Positions 1 through 38,968 of a DNA stretch of 42,639 nucleotides are shown one piece after another. The stretch covers positions 1 to 42,639 of the IMG/VR virus record IMGVR_UViG_3300020183_000163. One strand, written 5' to 3'. Source of the stretch: a virus. The notes under the pieces are model-generated. The model had not been told where the DNA came from. It saw only the letters and a list, made by a program, of their open reading frames with translations, and searched no databases. Positions within the stretch are counted from its first letter, which is position 1. Each line of letters starts with the position of its first letter. The position numbers were made by a program, and so were the translations under genes.

Positions 1-720
1 GCTACTAAAGATACTATCGAGGGTGTCATCAACATCAACAAGAACACAGCTAGCGAATTGTCTAAGTGGCGTTCGCACTCCTGCCATGATGGGCGTGGGG
101 ATGTTGATTTTGTGCTTTGAGATTGCATTGTAATATCTCCTAATATAACCTAAACGATCACTATTATAATTAGCAAATACAGTAACAGCGATCATCATGT
201 ACATGAACTGAGGAGTTTCATATACTTTACCAGTACTTCTGTCTTGTACAAGATACTTGTCTACTACTTGACGCAAACCAGCATAGGTGAATAAATAATC
301 CCTTCCATGATCAATCCATTGACCAATAGTTTCAAGTTCTTCTTGACTGTATTTAGAAAGAACTTCACTATCATATACACCAGCATCAACACATTGAACC
401 ACATAATCGTAAAAAGCAGGATGTTCCCAGCGAACACCAAATATTTGTTTCCTAAGACCAAACAAAAGGAGACGTGCTGCAACAAATTGATAATTTGGAT
501 GATCAAGATCAATCAAATCAGATGCAGACCTAATGAGAATCTCTTGTATTTCTGCTGTTTTGATACCATCATAAAATTGAATTCCAGAATTAATTTCTAC
601 TTGAGATGCAGAAACTCCACTCAATCCCCCACATGCACATTCAACCATGCTATGAATTTTATCTAGATCCAGGGATGCAATAGATCCGTTACGTTTTTTT
701 ACTTTAATTCCATTACTCAT
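1..720 (-). CDS. nrdA: Ribonucleotide reductase class Ia, alpha subunit, 5' part (partial)
   Basis: NrdA converts ribonucleoside diphosphates to deoxyribonucleotides for phage DNA synthesis. The first 240 codons are open from the ATG at 720 to the left edge, so the 3' end lies outside the window. The N-terminus (VKKRNGSIASLDLDKIHSMV) looks like an ATP-cone. It is followed by the helical N-terminal part of class I large subunits, with YETPQFMYMMIAV and IPTPIMAGVRTPLRQFASC, where the Cys is in the position of the first redox-active cysteine of the family. The start overlaps the stop of the primase gene by 4 nt (ATGA), so the two are probably translated as one operon. The reading frame shows no break. 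The partner nrdB is expected beyond the left edge. Confidence 0.95.
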   Translation of the reverse strand, partial: MSNGIKVKKRNGSIASLDLDKIHSMVECACGGLSGVSASQVEINSGIQFYDGIKTAEIQEILIRSASDLIDLDHPNYQFVAARLLLFGLRKQIFGVRWEHPAFYDYVVQCVDAGVYDSEVLSKYSQEELETIGQWIDHGRDYLFTYAGLRQVVDKYLVQDRSTGKVYETPQFMYMMIAVTVFANYNSDRLGYIRRYYNAISKHKINIPTPIMAGVRTPLRQFASCVLVDVDDTLDSIFSS

Positions 721-3114: not shown

Positions 3115-3711
3115 TCAGGTAGAAACAAATGTCTTGGTAGTTCCTTGCCCACCAGCGCCTGTAACATCACCTGCGACAATGGTAACATCTGCAGCATTGG
3201 TAGTGCCAACATCAAAAATGGTTCCACCATTAAGAACAACTGACTGTGCTGCAATGCTATGAGTTGTGCCAGTTGCTGCAACAGTGAAATCAAATTCTAA
3301 TCTGTTAGTGCTACTACCACGTGCATAGGTTGCAGTTGCTGTACCTGCACCAGCGGTTACTGTGATTGTTGGTGATCCATTAGTAGTTGAGACAGTGACT
3401 CTTTCATTGTAAATAACAACTACAGAACCAGTTGCTGCACCAGCATATGCTGACTCTTCAAAGAATACTGCCGTAATTGTTGCTTCACCAATGTTGGTTG
3501 TTTGAGGTGCAACTTCTCCTTGAGCACCAGCAAGTCCACCAATGGCAACGAGAACTTCGTCGTAATATTCTGTTTTTGTTGCGTTCTTATAATGACGATA
3601 AACCCAACCCTGACTAGTTGCAAAGCAATTATCAGGCTCTGCTACTTTATTTCCACGTTGCAGATATTTTGGTTTTGATTCGTCTGTTGTGGTTTTTCCC
3701 CAAAGAGGCAT
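3115..3711 (-). CDS. Probable virion structural protein (MPLWGK family)
   Basis: A 198-aa protein. The N-terminal 65 residues (MPLWGKTTTDESKPKYL, then CFATSQGWVYRHY) form a conserved head of the kind seen in small virion proteins of cyanophages. The rest is rich in Thr, Val, Ala and Gly with short beta-prone repeats (TVTAGAGTATATYARGSS), typical of a beta-sandwich surface or capsid-decoration domain. An exact TATAAATA late promoter (3749-3756) lies 38 nt upstream of the ATG and is preceded by an intrinsic terminator, so the gene opens a late transcription unit. The virion location is inference from composition, promoter and family resemblance. Confidence 0.75.
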   Translation of the reverse strand: MPLWGKTTTDESKPKYLQRGNKVAEPDNCFATSQGWVYRHYKNATKTEYYDEVLVAIGGLAGAQGEVAPQTTNIGEATITAVFFEESAYAGAATGSVVVIYNERVTVSTTNGSPTITVTAGAGTATATYARGSSTNRLEFDFTVAATGTTHSIAAQSVVLNGGTIFDVGTTNAADVTIVAGDVTGAGGQGTTKTFVST

Positions 3712-32230: not shown

Positions 32231-33832
32231 TTATTTTCCTGCTGCTTTTGGTGGAGCGGGAGGATTTTTAAGTTGATCAAGTGAAACCTTTTTGGTTTCC
32301 ATGTCAAGTTCAGCATTTTGCTTTTCTTGAGCAATTTGATTGAGCGGATCAATTACTTGACCCGTCTTAATTTCACTATTTATCTGTTCTTTCATCTCTT
32401 CAATTTCTTGCTCTGTAAATTTGAGCAATTGGCGCATAACATAATCTTGAGAGAAATACTTTCCAACATACAGATCTAATTTATCAAGTACATCCATTTT
32501 GGATTGAAGCATATCAAGTTCTGCCATTTCAGAGAATTGATTATCGTATATAAAATCATATTGTATATGCTCCTTCATCTCTTCCCAATCTTCAGGAGCA
32601 ATGACTCCCTTAAGAATAAGTTGAGTTCTTAAAATATCATGAAAAAGATCTGAAAACTTTTTACGGAGACGACCTACAAATTTAGTAAATTTAATTTCGT
32701 CTCTATTAATTTCTTCTGACTTTCCAAGATCAAAAGATTTATCACTCTCTAAACGTGATGGGGGTACATTAAGTGCTTTGTAAAGTTGTGTTTGAAAATA
32801 TTTAATATCAGTAAGTTCACCTAAATTCTGCCCTCCAGGCAGAGTGGTAATTTCTGTACCTCTTCCTCCTTCACGACGAGGTAACCAAAAATCTTCAAGC
32901 ATACTCATATGCTTTTTATCATCACGGATTTCACCAGTTTGTGAATCATAAACAAGTTTATTTCTATAGCGTGACATTACCTCTCTAAGATATTGTTCCG
33001 CTTTTACTTTCGGTAAATTGCCTACATCAATGTAAAAGATTCTGCGCTCTGGAGCACGAGACAAACGATAGATAACGATACTATCTTCAAGCATTCTTAA
33101 TTGATTAAGGAACTTGATTGCTTTATGAAGATAACTTAAATTAATATTTCTACCTTGATCCATTAAACCAGAGGTTATTGATGCAATAGCATCTGGTGCA
33201 ATTTTTATGCCTTGATTAGTATTATTGATTCCTTTGTTATTGTAAACAAAAAACTCAGTAACTTTACCAAAATCATGTCTCATGAATTGGTCAGAATCTA
33301 CTGGAGGTTTTACTACTTGTCTTACCTTTTTAATTTTTAAAGGGTCAATATATCTTAATTCTAATATTCCTTTTGATGGATCTTCAAGATCAATTACTTT
33401 ATGATAATATATTCTTCCATCAATATACCAACGCCTAAAAATTTCGTGACCAGTTTTGTCAAAATCAAGTAATCTTTTGACGTGATTAAATTCTTCTCTA
33501 ATTGAATTTTTAATTGATTCTGATACTTGTAAATTTGATAGTTCTACTTCTACTGGACTATCATCTCTATCTGAAACAATTGCTTCGTTGCTAATATCTT
33601 CGATAGCACTATCAACTTCTGGATGAAGTGCCATTTCTCTATATCTACGAATAAGAGCAACTTCGTCTCTTTTTTTCGTATCATCAAGATCTACATAATG
33701 ACCAAACCATCCCCCATACGGAAGGATGGTAGAAGAAGTGTCATTATCAGAAGGAGGAACAGGGGACGCTGGTGCTTTTGCCCCCTGAATTAATTCATCC
33801 TTCTTTATTTGAAAACCAAATAACTCCGCCAT
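32231..33832 (-). CDS. gp20: Portal vertex protein (T4 gp20-like)
   Basis: Twelve copies form the DNA entry channel and dock gp17 and the neck. The 533 residues include YGGWFGHYVDLDDTKKRDEV, LIRRYREMALHPEVDSAIED, ISNEAIVSDRDDSPVEVEL, RLSRAPERRIFYIDVGNLP and TTLPGGQNLGELTDIKYF, all hallmark stretches of cyanophage gp20. T4 gp20 is 524 aa. The last 70 residues are charged and probably disordered, ending Pro-rich (LKNPPAPPKAAGK). It is preceded by a CTAAATA motif overlapping the gene 19 stop. Confidence 0.97.
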   Translation of the reverse strand: MAELFGFQIKKDELIQGAKAPASPVPPSDNDTSSTILPYGGWFGHYVDLDDTKKRDEVALIRRYREMALHPEVDSAIEDISNEAIVSDRDDSPVEVELSNLQVSESIKNSIREEFNHVKRLLDFDKTGHEIFRRWYIDGRIYYHKVIDLEDPSKGILELRYIDPLKIKKVRQVVKPPVDSDQFMRHDFGKVTEFFVYNNKGINNTNQGIKIAPDAIASITSGLMDQGRNINLSYLHKAIKFLNQLRMLEDSIVIYRLSRAPERRIFYIDVGNLPKVKAEQYLREVMSRYRNKLVYDSQTGEIRDDKKHMSMLEDFWLPRREGGRGTEITTLPGGQNLGELTDIKYFQTQLYKALNVPPSRLESDKSFDLGKSEEINRDEIKFTKFVGRLRKKFSDLFHDILRTQLILKGVIAPEDWEEMKEHIQYDFIYDNQFSEMAELDMLQSKMDVLDKLDLYVGKYFSQDYVMRQLLKFTEQEIEEMKEQINSEIKTGQVIDPLNQIAQEKQNAELDMETKKVSLDQLKNPPAPPKAAGK

Positions 33833-33853: not shown

Positions 33854-34489
33854 TTATTTAGCAACGTTTTGACCAGTGAGTAATCCCTTACTACCATCTC
33901 TTGCTTTTTGACTAGTTCCTGCACCAAAGCTATCAAAGTATTGATATTGGAATTCTACATCAAACTCTTCAATTGCATCATTACTATCATATGCAACTGT
34001 AATTGGTCCAACACTAGTTGGCCAAGAACCAATTAATTTATAAGTTTTGATGGTTCCTTTATCTTCACCTTGCTGTGTAGAATCTTTAGTATTCTGTGAA
34101 ATTAAAATATCTTGGAAATATGCTCCACCAGGAGTTCCACCAATAGAACCATAGTTATAGGTTCCTATGTTTTCATCAACTTTGTTTCCAAGGTTGATCC
34201 ATGCTTCAAACGCAGTTCTCAAATTGAAGGTTGTAGTATTGTAAAAAGTTGCAGTCCATGATTCAAAGGTTCTATCGCCAGGAATTTTCAAAAAGCGACC
34301 ACGAAATGGTACTTCAATTAATCCCTGAGTTGAACCTGGAAGTGCCGCAGATCTACAGAGAAATTTAGTTTCTCCCATCAATTCCGTTGTGTTGTTACTA
34401 ATAAGAGTTGGAAATGAAATCTCAACAGTATATAAATTGGGTCTTACCCCCCCAGCTAATTTTGATTTAAAATCGTTAATGTTTGCCAT
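33854..34489 (-). CDS. gp19: Tail tube protein (T4 gp19-like)
   Basis: Forms the inner tail tube. The 211 residues (MANINDFKSKLAGGVRPNLY, then CRSAALPGSTQGLIEVPFRG, FESWTATFYNTTTFNLRTAF and EDKGTIKTYKLIGSWPTSVG) show the gp19 order: P-N-L-Y strand, L-P-G turn, F-R-G-R and T-Y-x-L-x-G-x-W-P. It is longer than T4 gp19 (163 aa), with a loop about residues 100-125. A ribosome binding site (AAGGAG) and a CTAAATA motif precede it. Confidence 0.95.
   Translation of the reverse strand: MANINDFKSKLAGGVRPNLYTVEISFPTLISNNTTELMGETKFLCRSAALPGSTQGLIEVPFRGRFLKIPGDRTFESWTATFYNTTTFNLRTAFEAWINLGNKVDENIGTYNYGSIGGTPGGAYFQDILISQNTKDSTQQGEDKGTIKTYKLIGSWPTSVGPITVAYDSNDAIEEFDVEFQYQYFDSFGAGTSQKARDGSKGLLTGQNVAK
33855..33861 (-). 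promoter_or_regulatory. CTAAATA motif before gene 20 (possible late-promoter variant)
   Basis: Minus-strand CTAAATA, coded as the end of gene 19 (Ala-Lys-stop), 23 nt upstream of the gp20 ATG. It matches the last six bases of TATAAATA. Confidence 0.35.
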
Positions 34490-34510: not shown

Positions 34511-37225
34511 TTATTTAGCGATTGCTTCAGAGAATGAAATGCCAGTTCTTGTAGCAGTGAAGGTAAGAGTAATAAAGTTAATAGAACGAGCAGGTTGTAT
34601 AAAGATGTCAGCAACAAACTCATTTCTGTCAATTACGGCAGAAGTATTGTTTGATCCATCGCAAACTAAGAGATAATCATAAAGACCTCTTCTTGCTTGA
34701 ACATCTCTTAAGAATGGTTCAACAATTGCCTTAAATGAATTTCTTGTTGTTTCGTCGTTAATTTCAAAGAGTTGTGCTTTAGCAGCATTCTCAATTGCTC
34801 TTTCAAGAATAAGGAATAGGCGACGAACATTAATTCTATCAAAGGCACTTGGAGTTGCGAGAGCAGTTTTATCTCCAAAGAGAACTGGTCCTTGACCTGG
34901 GAATGAAGCGATAGGATTAATTCGATTTGAATAAAGTTCATCTCTATCAACTTTATTTGGATTCCAAGCTAATTTTGCTGCTCCTTTGATTCCACCTCTG
35001 GTAAATCCAGCAGGAGAAAACCAAGGTTCTGCACTAATTGCACTATCTGCTACCAGTCCAGCAACATCACTATTGCATGGAATATAGCGATAGACATCAT
35101 TCCATCTATCATAAACATACTTGTAATTACAATCTAAAATAAGATATGAAGTACTAACAACATCTTTAAAGAATAATTTTAAGTTCTGTACAATATCTTG
35201 ATTTCTCAGTGGTAAACCAGAAGATGCAATAATGTTTCCTTTATGTGGAGAAGCAAATGCAATACAATCTTTTCTATATGATGCAATACCAGCAATATGA
35301 TTAATCTTTTGACGTGTCAAATCTGCAGTACTGCACCCAGGACCAACAATAAGATAATCAAGATCAACATTATCCAAATCTCTAAATTCATCATAAGCAG
35401 AGATAATATCAGTAATAGATACTTCCCAATCGGTAGCACCATTTGCTAATGAATATGAAATAGATCCTTTTGGAGTAAATGTTGCGGTCCTAGAAGCATT
35501 TTCAAATAAGGTATCTCCAACGTAAATATACTCACTGGAATCTGAAACTATCTTTTTGTAATAATTGATTCCACCTTCTGGTCCTTTAGCATTGTTTGCT
35601 TTAGATGCATAAGTATAAACTTCAAGAACAGTATCTTTTGATCCACTTATTCCACCATCTTCATCTACTACAGCAACGTGTATCGCATCTAACCCCAAAG
35701 AACTACCATAGAATGCAGCAGCATCTTCAGTCGCTACTGGTCTTGCAGCAAGAGAATTCCATTTAATGGTAGAACCAGTATATAAAGTTTTTGCTTCATA
35801 CCAAGCAGAACCATCATCTACTGATGCAATGGTAAGATTGGATTGAGTACCAATGTTAACAACGTCAGTTGTAGCAAATAATTGGTTTGATTCTGGATTT
35901 GGTACATACTCATTGTTAGTATTTACAATAATAATGTGAACCGAAGTATAATTTGTCTCGCTTACTTTTACTGTGGAAACATCAATAACTTTTCCTTTTT
36001 TAGTACCACTGGTTACGATATCTCCAACTAAAATGTTTGCATTTTCAGTTGACAATGTTAAACTTTGTTTTGGACCATTATCTATAACACAAACTCTTAA
36101 GTTATTGCCCCAAGCACCCTTTGTTCTACCTGCAAACAACCATCCAGAACTGTTGCCTAAGAACTGCGCTTCATAAACATCTGAGTTGTTGATTTTTACG
36201 GCTTCTGCTGCAATAGCAGCAGTTGCAGTGGCGGTTACACCTGGATCTGGGAAAGTAACTGTTAAGTTAGTAAAGTCACTAAAATTACCAAAGTTGGTAA
36301 CCGTAACGTTAGTTACTGATCCATTACTAACTGTTGCAGTTCCTTGAAACGGAGTGGTTACTGTTCCACTACTACTAACTGTTATTGGATAACTTTGATT
36401 TACATCATAGTTTGTACCACCACTGGTTACGGTAACTACAACGCCATTTGGTTGTGCAACTACAAGAGTTGGAGCGGTTGTATATCCAGTACCACCACTT
36501 AATACGATTGATTGTATTTGACCATTTGCTACGGTTGCAGTAGCAGTTCCTCCAGTACCACCACCACCACTTACAGTGATCTGTGGTGCTGTCTGATAAC
36601 CAGATCCTGCATTAGTGATATTAGCATTTCCAGTCAAATTGCCTCCAGAGAGGTTTCCCCCACCTGCCTCAGCTGTAGCTCTAGTTCCTCTTGCAACAGT
36701 TCCCAATGCTGTAACACCAACTGGAGAGATAGTAACTGATGGAGCAGAAGTGTATCCAGATCCAAGTTGTTCTACGACGATAGAAGATACTCTTCCTTGT
36801 GCGTTAATTATTGCTCTTGCAGTTGCTTGAGTAGCACCTGGAGTAGTTGGAGCACCAACAGTTACAGTTGGAGCACTGACATACTTTCCATTTGTTGAAG
36901 CATTGTTAACTGTAATTGCAGAAACGTAGTTACCTAATCTAGCAACTGAGTTAAATTGATTTGGGGTATCAATTCTTACGACTGAAAGTGTACCACCATA
37001 CGAAAGAAAATTAGTAGCACTTAACCAATATTCTGCGTTTTCTTCTCTTGGTTCACCAAAGACATTAATAAGCTCACTTTCTGTTGAAATTAAAACTGGG
37101 TTTCCAATTTCTCCTTTCTTAAAAGTTGCGGCAAAACCTGCAATATTATTAAGAGTAGCGTCAGCTCTACCGTTTGTAAGATCCTTTTCTTTAACAAGAA
37201 TCCCTGGGGAGCGTAAAGTTGCCAT
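34511..37225 (-). CDS. gp18: Contractile tail sheath protein, enlarged (T4 gp18-like)
   Basis: Contracts to drive the tube into the host. The N-terminus (MATLRSPGILVKEKDLTNGR), the middle (DYLIVGPGCSTADL, CIAFASPHKGNIIASSGLPL) and the C-terminus (INVRRLFLILERAIENAAKA, then RSINFITLTFTATRTGISFS) are standard gp18. The protein has 904 residues against 659 in T4, chiefly because about 240 residues (102-342) made of Gly/Ser/Thr/Val beta repeats are placed after the first domain. The repeats share G-x-G-Y-x-T/S-A-P-x-(I/V/L)-x-V. An exact TATAAATA and CTAGGAGA precede the start. Confidence 0.96.
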   Translation of the reverse strand: MATLRSPGILVKEKDLTNGRADATLNNIAGFAATFKKGEIGNPVLISTESELINVFGEPREENAEYWLSATNFLSYGGTLSVVRIDTPNQFNSVARLGNYVSAITVNNASTNGKYVSAPTVTVGAPTTPGATQATARAIINAQGRVSSIVVEQLGSGYTSAPSVTISPVGVTALGTVARGTRATAEAGGGNLSGGNLTGNANITNAGSGYQTAPQITVSGGGGTGGTATATVANGQIQSIVLSGGTGYTTAPTLVVAQPNGVVVTVTSGGTNYDVNQSYPITVSSSGTVTTPFQGTATVSNGSVTNVTVTNFGNFSDFTNLTVTFPDPGVTATATAAIAAEAVKINNSDVYEAQFLGNSSGWLFAGRTKGAWGNNLRVCVIDNGPKQSLTLSTENANILVGDIVTSGTKKGKVIDVSTVKVSETNYTSVHIIIVNTNNEYVPNPESNQLFATTDVVNIGTQSNLTIASVDDGSAWYEAKTLYTGSTIKWNSLAARPVATEDAAAFYGSSLGLDAIHVAVVDEDGGISGSKDTVLEVYTYASKANNAKGPEGGINYYKKIVSDSSEYIYVGDTLFENASRTATFTPKGSISYSLANGATDWEVSITDIISAYDEFRDLDNVDLDYLIVGPGCSTADLTRQKINHIAGIASYRKDCIAFASPHKGNIIASSGLPLRNQDIVQNLKLFFKDVVSTSYLILDCNYKYVYDRWNDVYRYIPCNSDVAGLVADSAISAEPWFSPAGFTRGGIKGAAKLAWNPNKVDRDELYSNRINPIASFPGQGPVLFGDKTALATPSAFDRINVRRLFLILERAIENAAKAQLFEINDETTRNSFKAIVEPFLRDVQARRGLYDYLLVCDGSNNTSAVIDRNEFVADIFIQPARSINFITLTFTATRTGISFSEAIAK
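34512..34518 (-). promoter_or_regulatory. CTAAATA motif before gene 19 (possible late-promoter variant)
   Basis: Minus-strand CTAAATA, coded as the end of gene 18 (Ala-Lys-stop), 23 nt before the gp19 ATG, at the same distance as the equivalent motif before gene 20. Confidence 0.35.
36199..36922 (-). repeat. Beta-repeat region inside the tail sheath gene
   Basis: Codons about 102-342 of gp18. Units with GKYVSAPTVTVG (114-124), GSGYTSAPSVTISP (155-168), GSGYQTAPQITVSG (207-220) and GTGYTTAPTLVVAQ (245-258) are joined by Ala/Thr-rich strands. The DNA here is richer in T, A and simple Thr/Val codon runs than the flanking sheath codons. Confidence 0.75.
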
Positions 37226-37285: not shown

Positions 37286-38968
37286 CTAGCGATACTCCCA
37301 CATGTAATTTACATCTCCATATTCACTAGTTTCTTTCCATCCTTTTTCATCAGCAACAATCCAAATATTTCCCTGACTATCTATTTCATCATAAGATCCA
37401 AGACCATCATCAATGAAACCAAATGGTGCCATATCTTGATCAATTTGATTCTTTTGTTCTTCATAAATTCTTTTACGAACATCATTATCAGTCATCTCTT
37501 TGAAGTATTCTTGCGCTACCAACCACGCAAAAATAACCAAACACATTGCTAAGTCATCGTTACAACCTTCTTCTGCCTCAAAAGATTGTTTCTTTTGAAT
37601 AAACGTTGTAAGTTCAGAAATAATTTCATAATCATTTACCAATAATTTATCACCTTCAACTAATTGTTTTAGGTTAGAACATCCAATCTTTTTAACAGTA
37701 GTGCTCATTTTTACACCAAGCTGTGTCTTAGCACCTGAAAATCCTTGACCAACCAATTGACCAGCACGACCTCTCATGGAACACATCAAAAGATTATCGT
37801 ATTCCAAATCATATTGTAAAATTGAAGCTACCTGATCGCCAATATCGTTGACTTCGCACAACACAAAGGCATGATTATAATTGATTGCAACTTGATGAAT
37901 GATGCTAGGAAATAGCATTGGTTTGATTGAATTGTTTCTATACTTACCAACTACTCTATATGGAACGGTAGTTATATCATATAAGATAAATGCTGAATAA
38001 TCATTGTTGACTCCACGAGACACGTCAACTGTCATTAAGTACTCATGATCTTCTTTTGATTCTTCATATATTGATAATCCCCCACTTTGATGCATTGGTT
38101 CATCATATGTCATTGTCCTCAACTTTGAGGCAGCAATAAGAGTATCAACTGATCCTAAAAATTCACATTCAAATTCTTGAGTAAACTGTCGTGCAGAAGT
38201 ATTTGCAATTGTCTGTTCTTTCCATTTATCATCTCTTCCTGGTACTTCTCTCCAATGTACTTCAGTTGTAACATATTCATTCCTATTCAACTCTGCATCA
38301 TGCCAGAGTTTATAGAACATGTTCATTCCATTTGGAGTTGAAATGATAATAACTTTTGTTGATTTACCAGATGAAATAGTAGGATATACAGACGAGAAAA
38401 ACTGTTCAGCAATATGTGTTGGAATAAACGCAAATTCGTCTAGGAAAATTATATTAAATGACATTCCTCGCACAGCAGATGCTGATGTAGAGGCAGCAAG
38501 AATCTTAGAACCATTCTCAAGTTCCATAGATCCTTTGTTATAAACAATAATACCTTGCTGCATCCATACAGGTAAGTTTTCATATGCCAACTGCAATCTC
38601 TGCAAAAGTTCTCTAGCAGTAGATAATTTGTTAGCAAGAATACCAATGTTTACATTATCATTGAAGATTGCATAATGAAGAAGATAAGCTACTACAGTAG
38701 TAGATTTACCTGTCTGTCTAGGTAACTTTGCAATATTGAATCTATTTTCATGAAATGTACGAATCATTTTTTCTTGAAAGTCGTACAAATTAAAAGGCAC
38801 TAAACCTTCATCAAGAGAAACAATTTTAATATAATTTCTTGCAAAATATACTGGATCTTGTTTACATTTCAAATACTCTTCAATTTGATCTTGAGTGAAG
38901 TTGATTGCAACGTTCGCTTTTTTTAAATTTGGATTACCAAGATAAATCTCATTATGACTAAGAGACAT
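37286..38968 (-). CDS. gp17: Terminase large subunit (T4 gp17-like)
   Basis: The packaging motor and headful nuclease. The 560 residues contain Walker A LPRQTGKST (82-90), Walker B IIFLDEFAF (173-181), the coupling motif IIISTPNGMN (207-216) and an RNase H-like nuclease with YLMTVDVSRGVNNDYSAF, CEVNDIGDQV and CNDDLAMCLV carrying the acidic residues. T4 gp17 is 610 aa. The ATG directly follows the stop of a 50-codon Cys-rich gene. No intron or inserted endonuclease is seen. Confidence 0.97.
   Translation of the reverse strand: MSLSHNEIYLGNPNLKKANVAINFTQDQIEEYLKCKQDPVYFARNYIKIVSLDEGLVPFNLYDFQEKMIRTFHENRFNIAKLPRQTGKSTTVVAYLLHYAIFNDNVNIGILANKLSTARELLQRLQLAYENLPVWMQQGIIVYNKGSMELENGSKILAASTSASAVRGMSFNIIFLDEFAFIPTHIAEQFFSSVYPTISSGKSTKVIIISTPNGMNMFYKLWHDAELNRNEYVTTEVHWREVPGRDDKWKEQTIANTSARQFTQEFECEFLGSVDTLIAASKLRTMTYDEPMHQSGGLSIYEESKEDHEYLMTVDVSRGVNNDYSAFILYDITTVPYRVVGKYRNNSIKPMLFPSIIHQVAINYNHAFVLCEVNDIGDQVASILQYDLEYDNLLMCSMRGRAGQLVGQGFSGAKTQLGVKMSTTVKKIGCSNLKQLVEGDKLLVNDYEIISELTTFIQKKQSFEAEEGCNDDLAMCLVIFAWLVAQEYFKEMTDNDVRKRIYEEQKNQIDQDMAPFGFIDDGLGSYDEIDSQGNIWIVADEKGWKETSEYGDVNYMWEYR

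Follow-up and report, generated by a model that had tools for sequence, protein, structure and literature searches.

The window, by which we mean the whole 42,639-nt stretch of viral DNA analysed here (IMG/VR record IMGVR_UViG_3300020183_000163), comes from a marine T4-like virus of bacteria, and its minus strand carries a gp18-like tail sheath gene whose neighbours stand in the order terminase-sheath-tube-portal (17-18-19-20), which matches the order in T4 (Table 1). T4 gp18 aligned to residues 579-901 of the 904-aa sheath (whole-sequence E 5.5e-85), indicating that the C-terminal part is true gp18. The conserved C-terminal sheath domains were present (Pfam PF17482, E 8.3e-15; PF04984, E 5.4e-9), as was the N-terminal domain III region (PF22671 at residues 28-85, 28.4 bits against a cut-off of 27).

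Table 1. Features of the sheath gene and its surroundings in the window (residues are those of the 904-aa sheath).
Feature	Coordinates	Strand	Basis
Portal (gp20-like)	32231..33832	-	phrog_213, E 8.2e-211
Tail tube (gp19-like)	33854..34489	-	phrog_45, E 1.1e-51
Tail sheath gene (gp18-like), 904 aa	34511..37225	-	Pfam Phage_sheath_1C, Phage_sheath_1, Gp18_domIII_N; PHROG 23 tail sheath, E 2.9e-117; T4 gp18, E 5.5e-85
C-terminal sheath core, residues 579-901	34523..35491	-	Pfam; T4 gp18 alignment
Second beta-barrel, residues 383-473 (site 2)	35807..36079	-	VIA-align Z 8.6 to residues 762-848 of 5iv5_BJ
Inserted all-beta repeat domain, residues 99-340	36206..36931	-	Model of residues 86-360; 20-sequence alignment
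Unit 6, degenerate motif GNFSDFTNLTVT, residues 313-324	36254..36289	-	G-[DNE]-[YF] kept 20/20
Unit 5, degenerate motif GTNYDVNQSYPITVS, residues 270-284	36374..36418	-	Kept 20/20; within one best-aligning place of T4-type domain-I profile
Unit 4, strict motif GTGYTTAPTLVV, residues 245-256	36458..36493	-	First G kept 20/20
34-nt tract, 32/34 identical to tail-fibre gene of matching longer contig	36464..36497	-	Nucleotide comparison
Unit 3, strict motif GSGYQTAPQITV, residues 207-218	36572..36607	-	G-x-G-Y kept 20/20
Unit 2, strict motif GSGYTSAPSVTI, residues 155-166	36728..36763	-	G-x-x-Y kept 20/20
Unit 1, landmark GKYVSAPTVTV, residues 113-123	36857..36889	-	G-K-Y kept 19/20
N-terminal sheath core, residues 1-84 (Gp18_domIII_N at 28-85)	36974..37225	-	Pfam; conserved across sheaths
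Terminase large subunit (gp17-like)	37286..38968	-	phrog_2, E 1.7e-77

The original prediction had described about 240 residues of beta repeats in this sheath at 36199-36922 (sheath residues 102-343), and the region proved to be real. The strict motif G.GY..AP.[ILV].[IV] occurs three times in the insert (residues 155, 207, and 245), and it was found in none of 10,000 shuffles of the insert; three strings of motif letters returned no paper when the open-licence literature was searched. Degenerate units are centred on residues 113 (GKY), 270 (GTNY), and 313 (GNF). Across 20 aligned sequences, each of the six G-x-x-(Y/F) landmarks is conserved in 19 or 20 (alignment A3, made up of the window and 19 of 20 kept rows, with 24 qualifying and the partial L020 left out). 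An AlphaFold2 model of residues 86-360 (20 rows) was all-beta with a mean pLDDT of 89.3 and a pTM of 0.72, its first strand starting at residue 99 and its last ending at 339, and the insert is therefore predicted with confidence to fold as a single all-beta domain, built from six G-x-x-(Y/F) units that are degenerate. No Pfam or NCBIfam name for the repeat was obtained above cut-off, and no Ig-like family profile matched the insert: at E<=10, Pfam listed nothing besides Poly_export, DUF5992, and Peptidase_S3, none of which reached the cut-off. Ig-like chains matched the insert model at low Z only, tied with other folds, and Foldseek of the model against the PDB gave nothing at E<=0.001, an absence that is uninformative about the fold.

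The composition of the insert is distinctive. Charged residues (D/E/K/R) make up 4.1% of it versus 20.5% of the remaining sheath; Thr, Gly, Ala, and Val are abundant, Trp is absent, and Tyr residues are few. Its G+C content is 43% versus 35%. Because this excess comes from codon positions 1 and 2 while GC3 is not raised (15.7% versus 18.1%), the higher G+C gives no sign of foreign DNA, and an origin from such DNA, as argued from base composition, was rejected.

We then considered how the insert varies among sheaths, using 112 rows taken from two scans of viral contigs, ten phage records, and the window. The insert was present in 32 of them, which include the window itself, the near-identical or identical L002, L003, and L019, and contigs fetched twice (L035, L036, L045). 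In each of the 31 rows that are complete at the site, the stretch bounded by the same anchors measures 262-272 residues, and in a tree of 99 rows (13 of the 112, being near-copies or fragments, were omitted) the 24 insert-bearing rows kept form one clade with a support of 100/100; the unit number is thus fixed within the window's clade. Identity of the insert to relatives is 45-60% versus 67-76% in the C-core, and its dN/dS is below 1 in 7/7 pairs (about 0.23-0.58 versus 0.07-0.24 in the C-core), so that the insert is under purifying selection, though of a less strict kind than the core. At the DNA level conservation of the units is poor, the longest repeat families being 31-32 nt (D1 copies 61-74% identical, D3 pair 81%), and no long near-identical DNA repeats able to drive slippage were found within the insert. 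The fixed unit number and the selection within the clade argue against a recombinogenic array, and the proposal that the region is recombinogenic because its units are alike finds no support in this monophyletic clade of near-constant length with units poorly alike in DNA. A comparison of repeat number among relatives had also been suggested, a fixed number together with a buried position being named as evidence against the original prediction; the number was fixed in the window's clade, and burial of the insert in the sheath is unlikely. In nine marine isolates (L026-L034), 21-34 residues occupy the insert site, with no such domain there, and tblastn of the insert against isolated phages gave no match, although the BLAST low-complexity filter may hide one. 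Another clade (21 rows, e.g. L063) has a different duplicated module of about 160 residues at the same site 1; a module resembling it was seen in cyanophage S-PRM1 (L033), where it lies at site 2.

With regard to position, the Pfam domain III-N model ends at residue 85, and the common G-x-W-G-N stretch comes after the insert, near residue 370. The boundaries given for T4 gp18 in PMC3004832 are 88-97, 98-188, and 189-345, and domain I (98-188) is described there as a six-stranded beta-barrel plus a helix which protrudes, makes no inter-subunit contacts, and is bound by the baseplate and by the long tail fibres in their retracted state. The insert occupies the same chain position as this domain; the idea of an inserted domain therefore stood, and its placement simply after the first domain is refined, since it lies mid-chain at the domain-I position. 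The same paper reports that G106S, S175F, and A178V in domain I inhibit fibre retraction. These three letters all fit the T4 gene only with Met uncounted, in which case G106 is the first G of the T4 GSNY motif, the kind of motif repeated in the insert.

Fold comparison pointed the same way at low scores. For the insert model, VIA ranked the T4-type sheath 9f4a first, at 98..188 (Z 3.9 over 67 aligned residues, rmsd 2.8, 16% identity), a Z that is low and tied with unrelated beta sandwiches; with the full-length model, T4 gp18 (3j2m) 99..188 fell on residues 102..340 (Z 4.7, also low, 73 aligned, rmsd 3.1). Both sheath ranges are exactly domain I. In sequence, T4 domain I against the insert had a raw score of 61, which was matched by 5/2000 shuffles of T4 domain I and 0/2000 shuffles of the insert, and four other T4 segments scored 30-34. 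By hhalign, the insert against seven Straboviridae domain-I rows gave E 0.00098 with three alternatives allowed and 0.0057 by default, at a probability of just 6-22%, versus E 0.29-0.9 for control comparisons with six other segments of the same sheaths. The single T4 sequence against the insert profile gave E 0.25, and a single-unit profile did not recover T4. There are also differences: domain I has 91 residues versus about 242 here in six units, and the insert models show no helix of the kind found in domain I. Weak as it is, the signal recurs in both sequence and fold, and it suggests a short version of the insert module in T4 domain I; we lean slightly towards homology of the two. The statistics behind this link, like those behind the shared virion module described below, are modest. 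The core of the full-length sheath model is unreliable (pLDDT <50), the model being usable only for the insert and about residues 380-476, and therefore the outward position rests on the T4 equivalence. On that analogy the insert very probably faces outward at the domain-I position, which supports the outward decoration proposed originally; its presence on every sheath subunit, also proposed, follows because the domain belongs to the sheath chain.

The module is found in other proteins as well. Insert sequences matched the neck family phrog_460 in 20/20 cases and phrogs 5342, 19630, and 708 in 19/20, and 17 to 19 of the 20 matched fibre, baseplate, and virion families. The insert thus resembles the G-x-G-Y repeats of marine phage virion proteins (PHROGs 460, 5342, 708, 701, 2885; BFVD), which belong to the neck, the fibres, the baseplate, or further virion proteins, unlike the sheath here; among BFVD predicted viral structures, including structural and baseplate proteins, 44 matches were obtained at E<=0.001. 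A longer contig (74,961 bp), which matches the window over 12,305 bp at 100% identity, encodes the module in a 3175-aa tail fibre (phrog_5342, E=0, 4 units; L132:4575-14102), in a 996-aa virion protein, and in a baseplate-type protein of at least 3294 aa (L133:3-9884). The giant tail-fibre and baseplate-type proteins are themselves mosaics of several virion families. The 34-nt identity between the sheath and fibre genes (Table 1) was equalled by 5/1000 synonymous shuffles and is modest evidence; an exchange between the two genes is possible on this sequence comparison. In bacterial genomes, 21 loci matched the module, and 3 of 9 bacterial proteins scanned were SusD-like outer-membrane lipoproteins with the repeat inside (L147, L149, L152, from Flavobacterium, Pedobacter, and Niabella; Pfam SusD_RagB E 4e-36 to 4e-32), while some further matching proteins have secretion-like starts.

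A second site of the sheath also accepts modules. The barrel at residues 383-473, which T4 gp18 appears from its sequence to lack, resembles the T4 baseplate chain 5iv5_BJ of about 1,000 residues, which we presume from its length to be gp7, and more weakly EF-Tu-type barrels. A unit HMM without composition correction placed insert-type units at site 2, after G-x-W-G-N, in the cyanophage-type sheaths L066, L071, L107, and others (shuffled decoys gave one match, at 0.28); with composition correction (20 sheaths), L066 remained (1.4e-6) and L071 and L107 dropped out. The A3-profile table was inflated by composition, and its weak rows were not relied on. These site-2 inserts share the repeat unit with the window insert by HMM and differ from it in chain place, in lineage, and in being labile between close relatives. 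In the sheaths of L057 and L104, the DNA flanks are 91.7% and 96.6% identical, and yet one has, and the other lacks, a site-2 cassette of 91 residues that includes a G-x-G-Y-like unit, the adjoining barrel having diverged too. Judged from sequence, this looks like natural domain swapping, and it is here, with a related cassette at the second site, that recombination is visible.

The insert is a real, conserved sheath decoration, folded according to prediction. Our overall reading, to which we give a probability of about one half, is that it forms an outward, enlarged domain-I-type docking platform on each subunit. T4 domain I would be the short version and the window's clade would carry the enlarged one at the same position; the insert would protrude from the sheath, without contacts within the sheath core, and, like T4 domain I, would be a surface on which other parts of the virion (retracted tail fibres, baseplate) dock. 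Its partners may be the fibre and baseplate proteins of this phage, which contain the same module. Docking of fibres or baseplate as the main role is a tentative proposal, held by analogy at slightly under even odds, and as a first guess T4 domain I would point to it before cell-surface or particle binding. On the other side, phages with insert-free sheaths (records of L051, L059, and L072) also have the module in other proteins, and therefore fibre and sheath copies need not pair. A more elaborate form, in which sheath, fibre, and baseplate share the repeat so that fibres lie and lock along the sheath by homotypic contacts, occasional exchange between sheath and fibre genes keeps the copies similar, and T4 domain I is a reduced remnant, is in our opinion improbable.

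Accessory adhesion, in which many weak contacts to glycans of host surfaces or particles hold the phage near cells, was the view of the original prediction and has been proposed for extra sheath domains, as for Ig-like phage domains, in PMC9230969. The module inside SusD-like lipoproteins and other proteins with secretion-like starts would fit such a role, but its location within a SusD-like protein does not require the repeat itself to bind glycan. The insert has few charged residues, no Trp, and few Tyr, and no binding site was seen in it; we regard adhesion as rather doubtful. In a stabilising collar, adjacent subunits would contact one another through these domains, making the extended sheath stiffer or shielding it; PMC9230969 raises this for domain II of phage 812 and also in general terms. 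Fixed size and purifying selection would agree with it; we nevertheless judge it unlikely, as T4 domain I lacks inter-subunit contacts (PMC3004832) and the insert varies more than the core does. It is quite unlikely, too, that the insert is a passive passenger, in other words a mobile module of virion proteins that settled in a tolerant surface loop and was kept as harmless. Fixed length in 31/31 complete clade rows and dN/dS <1 argue for a kept function, even though a similar module comes and goes at the second site between near-identical sheaths of other lineages and another clade bears a different duplicated module at site 1.

The insert has counterparts among known sheaths. In PMC9230969, Type 3 multi-domain phage sheaths, mostly of phages with genomes above 100 kb, likewise carry additional beta domains, placed away from the side that faces the tube; those domains are often Ig-like, while Ig-like chains matched the repeat here at low Z only. 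Extra domains of phage sheaths are already known, and here one is tied to a named position, that of T4 domain I, for which the module offers a possible origin. Sheath, fibre, baseplate, and neck proteins share the module, as do even surface lipoproteins of bacteria, and the two insertion sites together with natural presence/absence pairs provide material for testing the function of sheath decoration. Elsewhere in the window, 3115-3711 (minus strand) encodes a protein of 198 aa from phrog_11617, a family of unknown function; the protein is rich in Thr, Ala, and Gly in its C-terminal half and gave a weak match to the unit HMM without composition correction.
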